DNA from: an uncultured Jannaschia sp.
GTDB taxonomy: Bacteria; Pseudomonadota; Alphaproteobacteria; Rhodobacterales; Rhodobacteraceae
Direction: 5' to 3'
NCBI RefSeq assembly: GCF_947494025.1
Contig: NZ_CANLTQ010000005.1
Location: 166,754 to 230,753 of the forward strand
DNA length: 64,000 bases
Made by a program: the position numbers and the translations under genes
The notes under the pieces: generated by a model
What the model was told of the DNA's origin: nothing
The model's database searches: none
Seen by the model: the letters and a program-made list of their open reading frames with translations, nothing else
Part shown: piece after piece, positions 28,851 through 36,256 of the stretch
Numbering within the stretch: position 1 is the stretch's first letter
Layout of the letters: every line of letters begins with the position of its first letter

Positions 28851-29870
28851 GTGACGCGCCGCAACGACCGACACCGGCACCTGACGCTTCGGGACGTCTC
28901 CGAAGCCTCCGGAGTCAGCGAGATGACGGTCAGCCGCGTCCTGCGCAACCGCGGCGACGTGAGTGACCGCACGCGGGCCAAGGTGCTCGAGGCGGCGCGA
29001 CGGCTGGGCTACGTCCCCAACAAGATCGCCGGGGCCCTCGCGTCGAACCGGGTGAATTTGGTCGCAGTGGTCGTGCCGTCGCTGTCGAACCTCGTCTTCC
29101 CGGAGATGCTGGCCGGTGTTGACGAGGTGCTGGGCGACACCGCCCTCCAGCCCGTCGTCGGCACCACCGGCTACGACCCCGGAAAGGAGGAGCGGACATT
29201 GTTCGAAATGCTGTCCTGGCGGCCCTCCGGCGTGATCGTCGCGGGGCTCGAACATTCCGAGGCCAGCCGCGCGATGCTCGCCAATTCCGGCGTTCCCGTC
29301 GTCGAGGTGATGGATGTCGACGGCGAGCCGGTCGACGCCGCCGTAGGAATCAGCCATTGGCGCGCGGGCTATCAGGTCGGCATGGAGATCGTTCGGCGCG
29401 GCTATCGGCGGATCGGCGTGCTTGGAACGAAGGTGGACGGCGACCATCGCGCCCGGAAGCGGCTGGAGGGACTGGAGCGTGCGCTGGGCGAGGCGCAGGT
29501 GCCGGTCGTCGACCAGATGGCCTATTCCGGGCAATCCGCCTTCGGCAAGGGGCGCGAAATGACGGCAGAGATGCTGTCGCGCACGCCCGACCTCGATTTC
29601 CTGTTCTACACCAACGATCTGACCGGTGGGGGCGGATTGCTCTACGTTTTGGAGAAAGGGTTCGACGTGGGGAATGCGCTGGGCCTCGTGGGGTTCAACG
29701 CCTTCGCCCTGCTCGACGGATTGCCGAGGCAGCTGGCCACCGTAAACAGCCGCCGCCGCGAGGCCGGTCAGATCGCGGCACGGATCATCCTTGGCGAGCA
29801 CGGCTTCGCCGGCGAGGACCGACGTGTGGAACTGGTGCCGACGTTCCTGCCCGGCGACACGATGCGTTAA
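28851..29870 (+). CDS. LacI-family transcriptional regulator
   Basis: A 339-residue repressor-type protein. The N-terminal LacI helix-turn-helix is clear (TLRDVSEASGVSEMTVSRVLRNRGDVSDRTR, residues ~11-41), followed by the hinge helix AAGGLGYVPNKIAGALAS-like region and a periplasmic-binding-protein-like sensor domain. The sensor's style (VPSLSNLVFPEMLAGVDEVL) resembles gluconate-type GntR members of LacI family. The start is the GTG at 28851, with GAGG nine bases upstream. No sugar-catabolism genes are adjacent in the window, so the effector and target are unassigned; the neighbouring palindromes or the downstream cassette are possible targets. Confidence 0.9.
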   Translation: MTRRNDRHRHLTLRDVSEASGVSEMTVSRVLRNRGDVSDRTRAKVLEAARRLGYVPNKIAGALASNRVNLVAVVVPSLSNLVFPEMLAGVDEVLGDTALQPVVGTTGYDPGKEERTLFEMLSWRPSGVIVAGLEHSEASRAMLANSGVPVVEVMDVDGEPVDAAVGISHWRAGYQVGMEIVRRGYRRIGVLGTKVDGDHRARKRLEGLERALGEAQVPVVDQMAYSGQSAFGKGREMTAEMLSRTPDLDFLFYTNDLTGGGGLLYVLEKGFDVGNALGLVGFNAFALLDGLPRQLATVNSRRREAGQIAARIILGEHGFAGEDRRVELVPTFLPGDTMR

Positions 29871-29942: not shown

Positions 29943-30587
29943 ATGGCGATGCCGGACAAGATGCAGGCCAGCTACTTCCGCGGCTACGATTTCGCCGCGC
30001 CTACGATCGTGGACGTCGGTGTCCTCGCGGGCACGCCCTTCCTCTACGAGAGCTTCCCCGACCGGCGGTTCCTTCTAGTCGATCCGCTCGAGGAGAGCCG
30101 GGACACCGTGGCGCGGCGATGGCCGGGGCTCGACCATGCGTTCCACGTCTGCGCGCTCGGCGCGGCGCCGGGCCGGATGACGCTTTCGGTCGACCGTCGG
30201 CGGCTGGCGCGAAGCACCGGGGGCGCGCGGACGGGCGAGACGGCGATGCTGGAGCGGCGCGAGGTTGAGGTTCGCACGCTCGACAGCCTGACCGACGGCC
30301 TGCCCGGGCCCATCGGTCTCAAGATCGACACGGAGGGGCACGAGCTGGAGGTGCTGCAGGGCGCGACGGCCACGCTCGCCCGCTGCGAGTTCGTCGTAGC
30401 CGAAATTTCGATCAAGAAGCGCTTCGCGGGTGGCTACCGCTTTTCGCAGGTGATCGCCTTCATGGCCGTGCATGGCTTCGAGGTACATTCCTTCCTGTCC
30501 GGTCTCACGCGTGCGCCGCGCATGTCGGACGTGCTGTTCCTGCCCGCGGACGATCCGCGCTTCGACATGCCGCCGGGACGGAGCTGA
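29943..30587 (+). CDS. FkbM-family methyltransferase
   Basis: A 214-residue SAM-dependent methyltransferase. The segment TIVDVGVLAGTPFLYESFPDRRFLLVDPL is the SAM-binding region, and IGLKIDTEGHELEVLQGA is the signature block of FkbM proteins (KIDxEGxExxVLxGA). FkbM enzymes O-methylate sugars or polyketides and are common in polysaccharide and glycan gene sets. The gene starts a four-gene run (to 33839) with only 3 bases before the GSCFA gene. The target hydroxyl is unknown. Confidence 0.85.
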   Translation: MAMPDKMQASYFRGYDFAAPTIVDVGVLAGTPFLYESFPDRRFLLVDPLEESRDTVARRWPGLDHAFHVCALGAAPGRMTLSVDRRRLARSTGGARTGETAMLERREVEVRTLDSLTDGLPGPIGLKIDTEGHELEVLQGATATLARCEFVVAEISIKKRFAGGYRFSQVIAFMAVHGFEVHSFLSGLTRAPRMSDVLFLPADDPRFDMPPGRS

Positions 30588-30590
30588 GCG

Positions 30591-31742
30591 ATGAACGACA
30601 CGCCCGCTGCCAACGCACTCGAGTTCCAGCATACCCGGAAGGAGGGCGTGCACCGCACGTGGTTCCGCGGCGCGCATACCAACTTCACGCCGGACCGCGC
30701 CGGAATGGCCACGCCGGACGCCGCGCGCCGATGGGTCGTCGACGGCTGGCAGCCGGAGCAGCCGATGATCACGCCCGAGACGCGGATCACCGCCTTCGGC
30801 TCCTGCTTCGCGGCCAACATCTCGAACTGGCTGGCCGCGCGGAACTATTCGGTACTGACCCGCGACGAGGGCTCGAACGCCTATGTCGTGAAGTGCGGCG
30901 AAGGGATGGTGAACTCCTTCGTCATCCGCCAGCAATTCGAGTGGGCCTTCGAGGGGGCGCGCTTCGAGGAGGAGCTCTGGCACGGCTATTCCGCCGAGAG
31001 CTACGGCTACGACGAGGAAGTGCGGCGCCAGACGCAGGAGATCTTCGCCCGGACCGACCTGTTCATCCTGACCTTCGGACTGTCCGAGGTGTGGTACGAC
31101 GAGGTGTCGGGCGGCGTGTTCTGGCGGTCGATCCCGCAGGACGTCTACGACCCGTCGCGCCACAAGTTCCGCGTCACCACCGTCGAGGAGAACAAGGCCA
31201 ACATCCGCGCGATCCACGACCTGATCCGCCGCCATCGCCCGGAAGCCCGGATCATCTGCACGCTGTCGCCCGTGCCGCTGATCGCGACGTTCCGCCCCGT
31301 CTCCTGCATCAGCGCGAATGCCGTGTCGAAGAGCGTCCTGCGCGTCGCCATCGACGAGCTGATGCGCGAACTCGGCCCCGAGGCGAGCGGCGACGGCGTG
31401 CTGCATTACTGGCCGAGTTACGAGATCGTCACCGACGTCTTCCACTCGCCATTCAAGGGTGACCGGCGGCATCTCCCCAAGGCGGTCCTCGACTACATCA
31501 TGATGCTCTTCGAGCAGGTCTGGTGCGAGCGGCAGCCCAGCGAGGACGAGATGCGCCGCCACTGGCTTGCCGCGCTTTCGGCAGCGGGGCTCGTCTCCGA
31601 CCGGCTGGAGACGGCCATCCGGGAGGCCGACAGTGGCAAGGTCGCCCGCGTGCTCGCCAAACGCAGGATCGCGCGGCATCCCGAGATGGAGGCCGGGATC
31701 CGCGCCGAGGTCGAGCGTCTGGCCGAGACGCTGCGCGCGTGA
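30591..31742 (+). CDS. GSCFA-domain protein
   Basis: A 383-residue protein containing the family-defining motif as ITAFGSCFAANISNWL (GSCFA at residues 70-74). Supporting blocks are FILTFGLSEVWYDEVSGGVFWRSIP and TLSPVPLIATF, matching the SGNH-hydrolase-like fold. GSCFA proteins are thought to be acyl- or acetyl-esterase/transferase-like enzymes of glycan modification, but biochemical data are sparse. The gene is 3 bases after the FkbM gene, and its stop overlaps the GTG of the next gene (GTGA). No signal peptide is seen, so it acts in the cytoplasm. Confidence 0.88.
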   Translation: MNDTPAANALEFQHTRKEGVHRTWFRGAHTNFTPDRAGMATPDAARRWVVDGWQPEQPMITPETRITAFGSCFAANISNWLAARNYSVLTRDEGSNAYVVKCGEGMVNSFVIRQQFEWAFEGARFEEELWHGYSAESYGYDEEVRRQTQEIFARTDLFILTFGLSEVWYDEVSGGVFWRSIPQDVYDPSRHKFRVTTVEENKANIRAIHDLIRRHRPEARIICTLSPVPLIATFRPVSCISANAVSKSVLRVAIDELMRELGPEASGDGVLHYWPSYEIVTDVFHSPFKGDRRHLPKAVLDYIMMLFEQVWCERQPSEDEMRRHWLAALSAAGLVSDRLETAIREADSGKVARVLAKRRIARHPEMEAGIRAEVERLAETLRA

Positions 31743-33277
31743 AGCCGGTGCGCGACAACGCCCGCGCGGCGATGGAAACGCTGCCGAAAGCGGCGCGGGG
31801 GGCGGAAACAGGCACCCATGCGGGCCATCACACCGCCGCGCTCATGGAGATCGCGCGACCTGCCGCACTGACCCTTGTCGATCCCTGGACCGAGGACGCC
31901 GTGCGCGATGCCCGCGCGCTGGCGCAGGCGATCCCGCAGGCGACGCGGGACGCGCAGGCGGCGGCGGTCGCGACCGCCTATCCGGACGCGACGATCCTGC
32001 GCACGACCTCGGCGGAGGCGCTGGCCGGAATGGGGGACGGCGCGCTCGACTGGCTCTGGCTCGACGGCGGCAAGCATTACGACACGATCCTGGCCGATCT
32101 GGAGGTCGCCGCGCGCGTCGTGCGGCCCGGGGGCATCGTGGCCGGGGCCGGCTGGCACTGGGGCGCGGAACTCGGCCACCCGGTCCGCGCCGCCGTGACC
32201 GACCTGGCCGCTCGCCTGCCCGGCGCCACGGTGGAGACGCGGGGGCAATACTGGACGCTCCGCCTGCCCGATGCCGTCCGGCTCGCGCCCCGGCCGGAGG
32301 GACGGTTCCTCGTCGTCTCGACGATGAAGAACGAGGCGCCCTACATTCTCGAATGGCTCGCCCATCACCGCGCGCTCGGGTTCGACGATTTCCTGATCTT
32401 CACCAACGATTGCGAGGACGGCACCACCGCGCTGCTCGATCGGCTGCAGGCGCGGGGCGTGCTGACCCATCAGCCGAACCGCGTTTTGCGGCGCGGACCG
32501 CACAAGTCGGCGCTGAAATGGGCGAAGGATCACATCGCGACCCTTCGGGCCGAATGGATTTTCATCGCCGACGTGGACGAGTTCCTTGACATCCGCGCGG
32601 GCGACGGCACGGTTCCGGGGCTCCTGCGCACACTCGGGCCGGAGACGGACGTGGTGAGCTTTCCGTGGAAGGTCTTCGGCAATGGCGGCGTCACCGCCTT
32701 CGCCGACCGGCTCGTGACCGCGCAGTTCACACGCTGCGAGCCGTTGCCCCGCCGGGGCGGCCGACCAGCGCGGGAGGTCAAGACGCTCTTCCGAAAATTG
32801 GAAACAATGTATCATCTCGGACTGCATCGTCCTCGAATCCGAGACGAATGGGTGGATCGGATCGTCTGGAAAGCGCCCGACGGGACGGACCTTTCCGGGC
32901 GCATGAACCGGGGGCAGGTTTGGGCCATGCCCTGGGGCGGCTGCCAGGACGCGGCCTATCTGCGGCACTATCCGCTCCGCTCGCTGGAGGCGTATATCCT
33001 CAAGAAGAACCGCGGCCGGGCGAACCATGTGGGCGAGGATCTGGGCCGGGACTATTGGGAAAAGTGGAACATGGGCGGCGGTCGCGACGCCCCGCCGGTC
33101 GTGCCCGGCTTCGAGGATGCGCTGGCGGAGCTGCGGGCCGACCGGGGCGTGCGGCAGTTGCATCGGCGGGGTGTGGAATGGCACCGCGCGCAATACGCCG
33201 CGCTGATGGACGTGCCCGCCTACCGGGCACTGCGCGAGGCGCTCGGCGCGACGGAACCGGCGGACGGGACCGCCTGA
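31739..33277 (+). CDS. Methyltransferase-like domain fused to family 2-type glycosyltransferase
   Basis: The GTG at 31739 overlaps the upstream stop and gives a 512-residue protein; the track's longer start lies in the GSCFA gene. Residues ~1-180 match the next gene's class I methyltransferase (ETLPKAARGAETGTHAG; LDWLWLDGGKHYDTILADLE), but the GDDYHW block of the neighbour is GAGWHW here, so this copy may be inactive or altered. Residues ~195-500 are a glycosyltransferase of the Glyco_tranf_2_4/GT92-like type (VVSTMKNEAPYILEWLAHH, IFTNDCEDGTT, IFIADVDEFLDI). The fusion suggests a bifunctional or scaffolded glycan-modifying enzyme. Confidence 0.82.
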   Translation: MKPVRDNARAAMETLPKAARGAETGTHAGHHTAALMEIARPAALTLVDPWTEDAVRDARALAQAIPQATRDAQAAAVATAYPDATILRTTSAEALAGMGDGALDWLWLDGGKHYDTILADLEVAARVVRPGGIVAGAGWHWGAELGHPVRAAVTDLAARLPGATVETRGQYWTLRLPDAVRLAPRPEGRFLVVSTMKNEAPYILEWLAHHRALGFDDFLIFTNDCEDGTTALLDRLQARGVLTHQPNRVLRRGPHKSALKWAKDHIATLRAEWIFIADVDEFLDIRAGDGTVPGLLRTLGPETDVVSFPWKVFGNGGVTAFADRLVTAQFTRCEPLPRRGGRPAREVKTLFRKLETMYHLGLHRPRIRDEWVDRIVWKAPDGTDLSGRMNRGQVWAMPWGGCQDAAYLRHYPLRSLEAYILKKNRGRANHVGEDLGRDYWEKWNMGGGRDAPPVVPGFEDALAELRADRGVRQLHRRGVEWHRAQYAALMDVPAYRALREALGATEPADGTA

Positions 33278-33287
33278 AAGGACGATC

Positions 33288-33839
33288 ATGGCCGGAAAGC
33301 GCGACGAGACGCGGCGGAGGATGCTGGAGACACTGCCGAAGGGCGGGACCGGCGCGGAAGTGGGCGTATGGGAGGGACGGTTCAGCGAGATCATCCTCGA
33401 GGTTTGCGCACCGGCGCGCCTGCACCTGATCGACCCTTGGGAATACGATCCGCGCTTCAACAATACCGGTTTCGGGCGAAAGAAGAACGCCGAGCGCATG
33501 CCGGAAATGTACGAGACGGTCGCCGCGCGCTTTGCCGGCGACGACCGCGTCGTGCTGCAACGCGCCACGTCGGAGGCGGCGCTGTCGGAGATGGCGGACG
33601 GAAGCCTCGACTGGATCTACATCGACGGCAACCACAACGCGCCCTTCGTCGACACCGATCTCGATCTGGCCTCGCGCAAGGTCCGCCCCGGCGGCGTGAT
33701 CGCGGGCGACGACTATCACTGGAGCGACGGGGAGGGGACGCCGGTGAAGGACGCCGTGGGCCGCCTCGTGGCGCGGCTGGGCGATCGCGCCGCGCTCGAG
33801 ACGATGGGGCAGCAATACGTGATCAGGTTGGCCGGCTAG
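33288..33839 (+). CDS. Class I SAM-dependent methyltransferase (Methyltransf_24 type)
   Basis: A 183-residue methyltransferase starting MAGKRDETRRRMLETLPKGG. The SAM-binding loop is GTGAEVGVWEGRFSEIIL, the acidic strand end is LIDPWEYD, and the later block DWIYIDGNHNAPFVDTDLDLA followed by VIAGDDYHW is typical of Methyltransf_24 proteins that act on sugars in glycan clusters. It is closely related to the N-terminal half of the preceding fused protein, so the two arose by duplication. GAAAGGACG precedes the ATG. It ends the cassette that starts with the FkbM gene. Confidence 0.87.
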   Translation: MAGKRDETRRRMLETLPKGGTGAEVGVWEGRFSEIILEVCAPARLHLIDPWEYDPRFNNTGFGRKKNAERMPEMYETVAARFAGDDRVVLQRATSEAALSEMADGSLDWIYIDGNHNAPFVDTDLDLASRKVRPGGVIAGDDYHWSDGEGTPVKDAVGRLVARLGDRAALETMGQQYVIRLAG

Positions 33840-33960: not shown

Positions 33961-35361
<1,401 letters not shown>

Positions 35362-35386
35362 GGGCGCCTCGGGATCGGCCGGCGGG

Positions 35387-36256
35387 CTAGCGGGCCGCAC
35401 GCCCGCCCTTGCTCTTCCAGCGACGGTGGAGCCAGTACCATTGCGACGGATGCTGCGCCACCCATGACGAAAGGCGGTCGTTGAAGACCTGCATCATCGT
35501 CGCCGCGTCGGTATGCGGGATCGGCGCCTCGAGCGTGACGACGGGCCGGCCGTCGATCTCCGGGGCGAAGGTCGGGATCAGCGGCAGGTCGTAGCGCAGC
35601 GCCAGTTCGGCCGCTGCGAGCGAAGTGCGCGCGGGATGACCGAGAAAATCCAGATAGGGCGCGCCCTTCACGTACTGATCGGGCAGGATGGCCATCACCG
35701 CGCCGCCCCGCAGCGCGCGCAGAAGGTCGCGGTTGCCGGCACGGCCCTTGGCCACGATCGGTCGGCCCCCGGCTTCCAGCCCGCGCCGAAAGATCGGGTC
35801 GTAATAGGGGTTGTTGTTCGGCCGGTAGATCGCGCCCGCCTCGATCCCCTCGCGCCGGAGGATCGCGCGCACCGCCTCCCATTGGCCGTAATGGCCCGAC
35901 AGGAGGATGGCCCCGCGCCCTTCCGCCCGGGCGGCGCGCAGGGCGGCGAGCCCGTCGCCATGCGCGTCGAGAACCGCCGTCTCCTTCGCGAAGTCCTCGT
36001 TGAACCACACGCTCGCGAGGGTGCGGCCGACGTTTCGGGCGACCTCGTGCGACAGCCGGCGGCGCTCTGCCTCGGCCATGTCGGGCCAGACGCGGCGCAG
36101 GTTCGCACGCACCCGGCGGCGGAGCGGGGAAAGGCGCACGACCCACTCCGTCACCGTGCCAAGGATGCGCCGGCGGGCGGGCATGGACAGCGGACGGAGG
36201 CAGGCAAGGAGCCCGCGCAGGGCGTAGGCCTGCAGCCGGTAGACGAGATCTCTCAT
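35387..36256 (-). CDS. LpxL/HtrB-like lipid A acyltransferase
   Basis: A 289-residue lysophospholipid-type acyltransferase. The catalytic HX4D/E motif is GHYGQWE, and the segment IYRPNNNPYYDPIFRRG resembles LpxL-family proteins that add the secondary acyl chain to lipid A on the inner membrane. The N-terminal stretch (YRLQAYALRGLLACLRPLSM) is amphipathic or hydrophobic and fits membrane anchoring. It is divergent from the lytic transglycosylase gene. The precise acyl chain is not readable. Confidence 0.85.
   Translation of the reverse strand: MRDLVYRLQAYALRGLLACLRPLSMPARRRILGTVTEWVVRLSPLRRRVRANLRRVWPDMAEAERRRLSHEVARNVGRTLASVWFNEDFAKETAVLDAHGDGLAALRAARAEGRGAILLSGHYGQWEAVRAILRREGIEAGAIYRPNNNPYYDPIFRRGLEAGGRPIVAKGRAGNRDLLRALRGGAVMAILPDQYVKGAPYLDFLGHPARTSLAAAELALRYDLPLIPTFAPEIDGRPVVTLEAPIPHTDAATMMQVFNDRLSSWVAQHPSQWYWLHRRWKSKGGRAAR

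Follow-up and report, generated by a model that had tools for sequence, protein, structure and literature searches.

A cassette of Jannaschia, a marine bacterial genus, encodes a fusion protein whose N-terminal Methyltransf_24 (MT24) domain is most likely, judged from its residues, a conserved pseudo-methyltransferase joined to an apparently intact glycosyltransferase. The fusion is probably a glycosyltransferase with a pseudo-methyltransferase docking or ligand-binding domain which, with a set of optional enzymes, would decorate a cell-surface glycan. The N-terminal domain has retained the methyltransferase fold and the SAM-binding residues but would have lost metal-dependent catalysis; it would act by docking or by binding a ligand (the acceptor glycan, or SAM/SAH) without catalysis, and would position or control the attached glycosyltransferase. 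The optional GSCFA protein (a putative acyl transferase or esterase), FkbM methyltransferase and active MT24 enzyme would further decorate the glycan, the order of these reactions being part of the proposal, and the surface glycan itself would be the product of genes at other chromosomal or extrachromosomal sites.

Gene layout

Four genes were located head to tail on the forward strand of the window (the whole 64 000-nucleotide stretch of DNA analysed), in the close succession described in the earlier note, and each product gave the expected Pfam domain. The FkbM-family methyltransferase gene (29943..30587; PF05050, E 1.7e-14, 54.7 bits against a cut-off of 22.7; NCBIfam TIGR01444, 46.3 against 37.7) is followed after a gap of 3 bp by the gene for a GSCFA-family protein (30591..31742; PF08885, SGNH-hydrolase clan, E 3e-41, 142.2 bits against a cut-off of 25). 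The fusion (31739..33277; 512 aa by translation) has a GTG start at 31739 that overlaps the GSCFA stop by 4 bp (GTGA), and a free MT24 enzyme with a complete D-x-x-H ... D site is encoded after a gap of 10 bp (33288..33839; PF13578 7.7e-17, 62.5 bits against a cut-off of 26.3). Within the fusion, the degenerate MT24 domain (31739..32293; PF13578 1.2e-12, residues 23-135) scored 49.1 bits against the same cut-off of 26.3, and the C-terminal GT2_4/GT92-like glycosyltransferase domain (32294..33277), which contains a DxD motif (DVDEF), matched PF13704 (E 1.6e-21, residues 197-290, 77 bits) and PF01697 (2e-7, 31.3 bits), both above cut-off. No kinase family was matched by Pfam profiles in any of the four proteins. 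An acyl-transfer role for the GSCFA protein is a guess, because no member of the family (PF08885) has a known activity (PMC9487903).

Upstream and on the same strand, a LacI-family regulator gene (28851-29870) ends 72 bp before the FkbM gene. Downstream, convergent with the cassette on the opposite strand, come the genes for a serine dehydratase (33961-35400) and for a lipid A acyltransferase-family protein (PF03279; 35387-36256). The earlier statement that no polysaccharide genes flank the cassette therefore holds for polysaccharide genes proper, but has to be qualified for the lipid A acyltransferase-family gene close by.

Recurrence of the fusion

A GTDB contig scan returned eight full-length fusion relatives, all from the genus Jannaschia (63-87% identity), and the full-length fusion was present in 16 of the 21 Jannaschia genomes searched, the window's own genome included. 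With the N-domain profile, 397 genomes drawn from the Rhodobacteraceae gave two genera beyond Jannaschia that have the fusion (G224 and G337), and G796, a second genome from the genus of G337, also carries it. The order GSCFA, fusion, free MT24 of the window was recovered in G337 and G796, with identities to the window of 56-57% for the glycosyltransferase half, 64-67% for the methyltransferase and 70-71% for the GSCFA protein; an FkbM gene lies ahead of GSCFA in both, that of G337 being a different FkbM. The earlier note had left room for a cassette without recurrence elsewhere and for a sequencing error merging two genes. The first is answered by the gene order in G337 and G796, and the second was ruled out because the same fusion recurs in 15 more Jannaschia genomes and two other genera.

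Besides the fusion in these two genera, fusions of the reverse order (GT2_4-MT24) were seen in three other Rhodobacteraceae genera (G293, G327 and G152; L198:8012-9727, L200:8932-10611 and L209:7381-9159). Their D/H/D catalytic site is complete. The joining of GT2_4 and MT24 thus arose at least twice.

In a class-wide sample of 385 genomes, MT24 relatives were present outside the family and no fusion was identified, the longest open frame (G541) alone having been examined; this seeming fusion (L256) proved to be an overlapping ORF. No relative turned up when viral contigs were scanned, and a viral origin was rejected. Carriage of the complete fusion on a plasmid was rejected as well, since none of the plasmid records covered 80% of it. 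A literature search for pseudo-methyltransferase-glycosyltransferase or Methyltransf_24 fusions, thin in subscription journals, returned nothing relevant.

Loss of the catalytic site

Nineteen fusion N-terminal domains were aligned with 36 further MT24 domains recovered in these searches, with numbering according to the free MT24 enzyme of the window. The fusion N-terminal domain and the free enzyme of the window are about 38-40% identical; their paralogy, and the contrast of GAGWHW in the fusion with GDDYHW in the free enzyme, had been noticed correctly before, and the catalytic residues were found to be lost in every orthologue. Asp113, His116 and Asp142 were invariant in the canonical domains (36/36). 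In the fusion domains, position 142 was Gly throughout (19/19) and position 116 was Lys in 18 and Tyr in one. In the window's fusion the DGNH motif has Lys in place of His, a second change, beyond GAGWHW, that the earlier note had missed. The N-terminal domain of G796 agrees with these losses, and the fusions of nine genomes without a free MT24 gene have the same substitutions. A new motif, [GA]G[WL]xW...[EQ][LM]G[RY]PV, is shared by the fusion domains.

The spacing of the three positions (113/116/142; D..+3..H and D..+29..D) is that of D275/H278/D304 in MycE/ThnM1, column equivalence with the MycE site resting on motif, spacing and weak profile matches to MeT1, TylE-type and MycE chains. In MycE/ThnM1, Asp275 and Asp304 bind Mg and are in contact with the diol of the sugar (PMC9275233), and the general base of MycE is a His (PMC9539859). 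The free enzyme has the entire metal/base triad (Asp, His +3, Asp +29) and the fusion N-terminal domain does not; with the catalytic base and second metal ligand gone, the metal-dependent methylation carried out by its relatives is not expected of the domain. The free enzyme was modelled with a mean pLDDT of 84.6, and Foldseek gave MeT1 as the top match (TMq 0.71) and also MycF. In the AlphaFold2 model of the fusion, the N-terminal domain was confident and matched O-methyltransferases in Foldseek, MeT1 among the top matches; the glycosyltransferase half had pLDDT mostly <50, too poor for interface analysis.

Replacement of two of three otherwise invariant residues in essentially all fusions weighs against a bifunctional enzyme, in which the N-terminal domain would still methylate independently of the metal site, Lys116 perhaps serving as base, and the sugar added by the glycosyltransferase would then be methylated. 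Behind the GG pair the fusion domains have a variable residue (H, F, R, N), which thus offers no obvious substitute base. The second tandem copy of the fusion in G224 (L156:11642-13207) has lost the SAM-binding motif as well and still keeps the GSGLNWAEQLGYP segment of the surrounding fold and a glycosyltransferase half with a DxD-type motif (DADEF), an argument against SAM turnover being the conserved property. A bifunctional enzyme would, on the other side, fit the retention of the SAM-site residues E24, G26, G30 and D49 in 18/19 fusion domains, which leaves room for a metal-independent methyltransferase, and that of D113, likewise in 18/19. The full catalytic set of the reverse-order fusions in three other genera also shows that coupling of glycosyl and methyl transfer within a single chain is found in the family. 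Taken together, we regard the bifunctional enzyme as unlikely and a pseudo-methyltransferase as the better description of the domain.

Phylogeny and selection

In a tree of MT24 domains, those of the fusions formed one clade (support 100/100) on a long branch. Pairwise dN/dS of the N-terminal domain was 0.13-0.34, below 1 in 7/7 pairs and higher than in the glycosyltransferase half in 6/7 pairs, ratios that are approximate because dS was high in several pairs. The domain is under purifying selection; with dN/dS below 1 but mostly above that of the other half, it is constrained, less tightly. The long branch, and evolution of the domain faster than that of the glycosyltransferase half, the free enzyme and the GSCFA protein in most pairs, could be taken to mark a decaying, functionless relic of a duplicated gene. 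Against decay, dN/dS is clearly below 1 in every pair, the open reading frame has been kept in every orthologue, other genera included, and the new shared motif is conserved, so that a relic appears very improbable.

The free MT24 enzyme clustered in the tree with MT24 genes of other Rhodobacteraceae. Ten of those genes (L196, L199, L201-L207 and L211) immediately follow ahcY, which encodes S-adenosylhomocysteine hydrolase, and AhcY is 83-100% identical across the ten genera with an adjoining free MT24 gene. The arrangement suggests a methyltransferase coupled to SAH recycling.

Cassette composition and chromosomal position

Across the 16 fusion-bearing Jannaschia loci, GSCFA was present in 12, FkbM in seven and free MT24 in seven, and one Jannaschia genome had the fusion with no GSCFA, FkbM or free MT24 gene nearby. 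The fusion is the constant part and the other three genes are accessories; the compact four-gene unit first described is present in the window, but its composition is not fixed.

This variation bears on the possibility that the N-terminal domain is a catalytically dead partner, serving as regulatory pseudo-subunit in a heterodimer with the free MT24 enzyme. The free enzyme is a paralogue whose gene follows the fusion after 10 bp in the window, and it has this position behind the fusion in seven Jannaschia genomes and in G337 and G796. However, no free MT24 gene was found genome-wide at E <= 1e-3 in 9/16 fusion-bearing Jannaschia genomes, where the domain is degenerate in the same way, nor was one found in G224. 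An obligate heterodimer, with the pseudo-enzyme always accompanied by an active paralogue, was rejected on this co-occurrence of 7/16 only. A dead partner of any kind seems improbable, and an optional interaction may occur in the genomes that carry the free enzyme. Of the dead-partner idea as first put forward, the dead site is strengthened by the second lost residue and the conserved loss; an obligate partnership is not supported.

Most loci have the cassette between a LacI gene and an sdaA-type gene. This slot can be empty, since in the cassette-less genome G313 the LacI and SdaA genes are near neighbours with a small opposite-strand ORF alone called between them, and in the cassette-less G308 the LacI gene adjoins a lipid A acyltransferase-family gene. 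It is doubtful that LacI is a dedicated regulator of the cassette, because an orthologue (61-83%) was present in 16/16 genomes tested, cassette-bearing and cassette-less alike. In G298 (L149) the cassette is rearranged, the LacI gene standing between an upstream FkbM gene and a downstream fusion.

Glycosyltransferase half and target of the cassette

DVDEF was invariant in the Jannaschia fusion orthologues, and DVDEF or DADEF was found in 18/18 fusions examined. The best relative of the glycosyltransferase half (49%) is encoded on a Pontibrevibacter plasmid and adjoins a GSCFA gene whose product is 57% identical to that of the cassette; the cluster also contains glycosyltransferases, two methyltransferases (one MT24), a DegT-type aminotransferase, an FdtA-like cupin and an ABC ATPase. 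Other GT2_4 genes lie beside the fusion in G337, G796 and G224. On the strength of the Pontibrevibacter cluster, annotated as of polysaccharide type, and these GT2_4 neighbours, surface-glycan decoration, as the earlier note had suggested, is plausible; no polymerase, flippase or exporter gene adjoins the cassette in the window, so this target rests on the relatives.

The same lack of export and polymerase genes in the window's cassette would suit a soluble or secreted product, such as a small glycoside or a glycoprotein, in place of a surface polysaccharide, and MT24/TylF relatives of known function act on macrolide sugars. Yet no biosynthetic gene cluster features adjoin the cassette, and its closest contextual relative belongs to a polysaccharide-type cluster. 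We therefore hold a soluble product to be a minor, though real, possibility, and a surface glycan the more plausible target.

Long open frames (750-900 aa) with a GT2_4 match are common across the family, and a GT2_4 protein of 750-805 aa was seen beside one of 346-348 aa (L214:8451-11703 and L195:12092-15383). The N-terminal region of about 400 aa in the long proteins had no Pfam match and a weak likeness to glycosyltransferase domains; its interpretation, in the family-wide 750-800 aa glycosyltransferases, as a dead glycosyltransferase domain was not retained, the hhalign probabilities of 9.5 and 40% being weak.

Comparison with known systems

The sugar O-methyltransferases MycE/ThnM1/TylE and MycF/TylF have the class I fold and D-x-x-H ... 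D site in common with the free MT24 enzyme. Compared with this group, the fusion N-terminal domain no longer has the His or the second Asp and is joined to a glycosyltransferase, and the cassette domains have weak sequence similarity to the solved structures. MeT1 of Mycolicibacterium hassiacum, a methylmannose polysaccharide methyltransferase, has a D-x-x-H segment that aligns with the free enzyme, but the identity is low (about 16%), and MeT1 belongs to a different lineage and is not fused. Klebsiella O7 ORF6 consists of an N-terminal methyltransferase, a kinase, a coiled coil and two C-terminal glycosyltransferase modules (PMC11231755); like the fusion, ORF6 and WbdD bring a methyltransferase and glycosyltransferase modules together in one chain or in a surface-polysaccharide pathway. 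Their methyltransferase is taken to be active and comes with a kinase domain, whereas the window's fusion has a degenerate methyltransferase and lacks the kinase, coiled coil and CBM. Having no kinase, it does not show the methyltransferase and kinase in one chain that characterise the WbdD/ORF6-O7 chain terminators. The fusions of G293, G327 and G152 unite, like the window's fusion, a GT2_4 and an MT24 domain in a single protein, but in reversed order, with a complete methyltransferase site and with methyltransferase domains in a separate clade.

Pseudo-enzymes fused to pathway partners are well known among kinases, and to our knowledge are little described among methyltransferases in glycan assembly. 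A more specific role, in which the N-terminal domain would be a built-in reader, binding a glycan end (methylated or not) or SAM/SAH and so switching or guiding the glycosyltransferase, is quite unlikely on present indications; if true, such a reader domain would be an undescribed coupling of methylation state to chain extension. The cassette also provides a small genetic setting for probing the activity of a GSCFA protein. The most useful part of the finding is the contrast between the two domain orders, one of which lost the methyltransferase site and the other kept it. The complete free paralogue 10 bp downstream and the complete-site reverse fusions are natural controls for the fate of a fold after catalytic loss.
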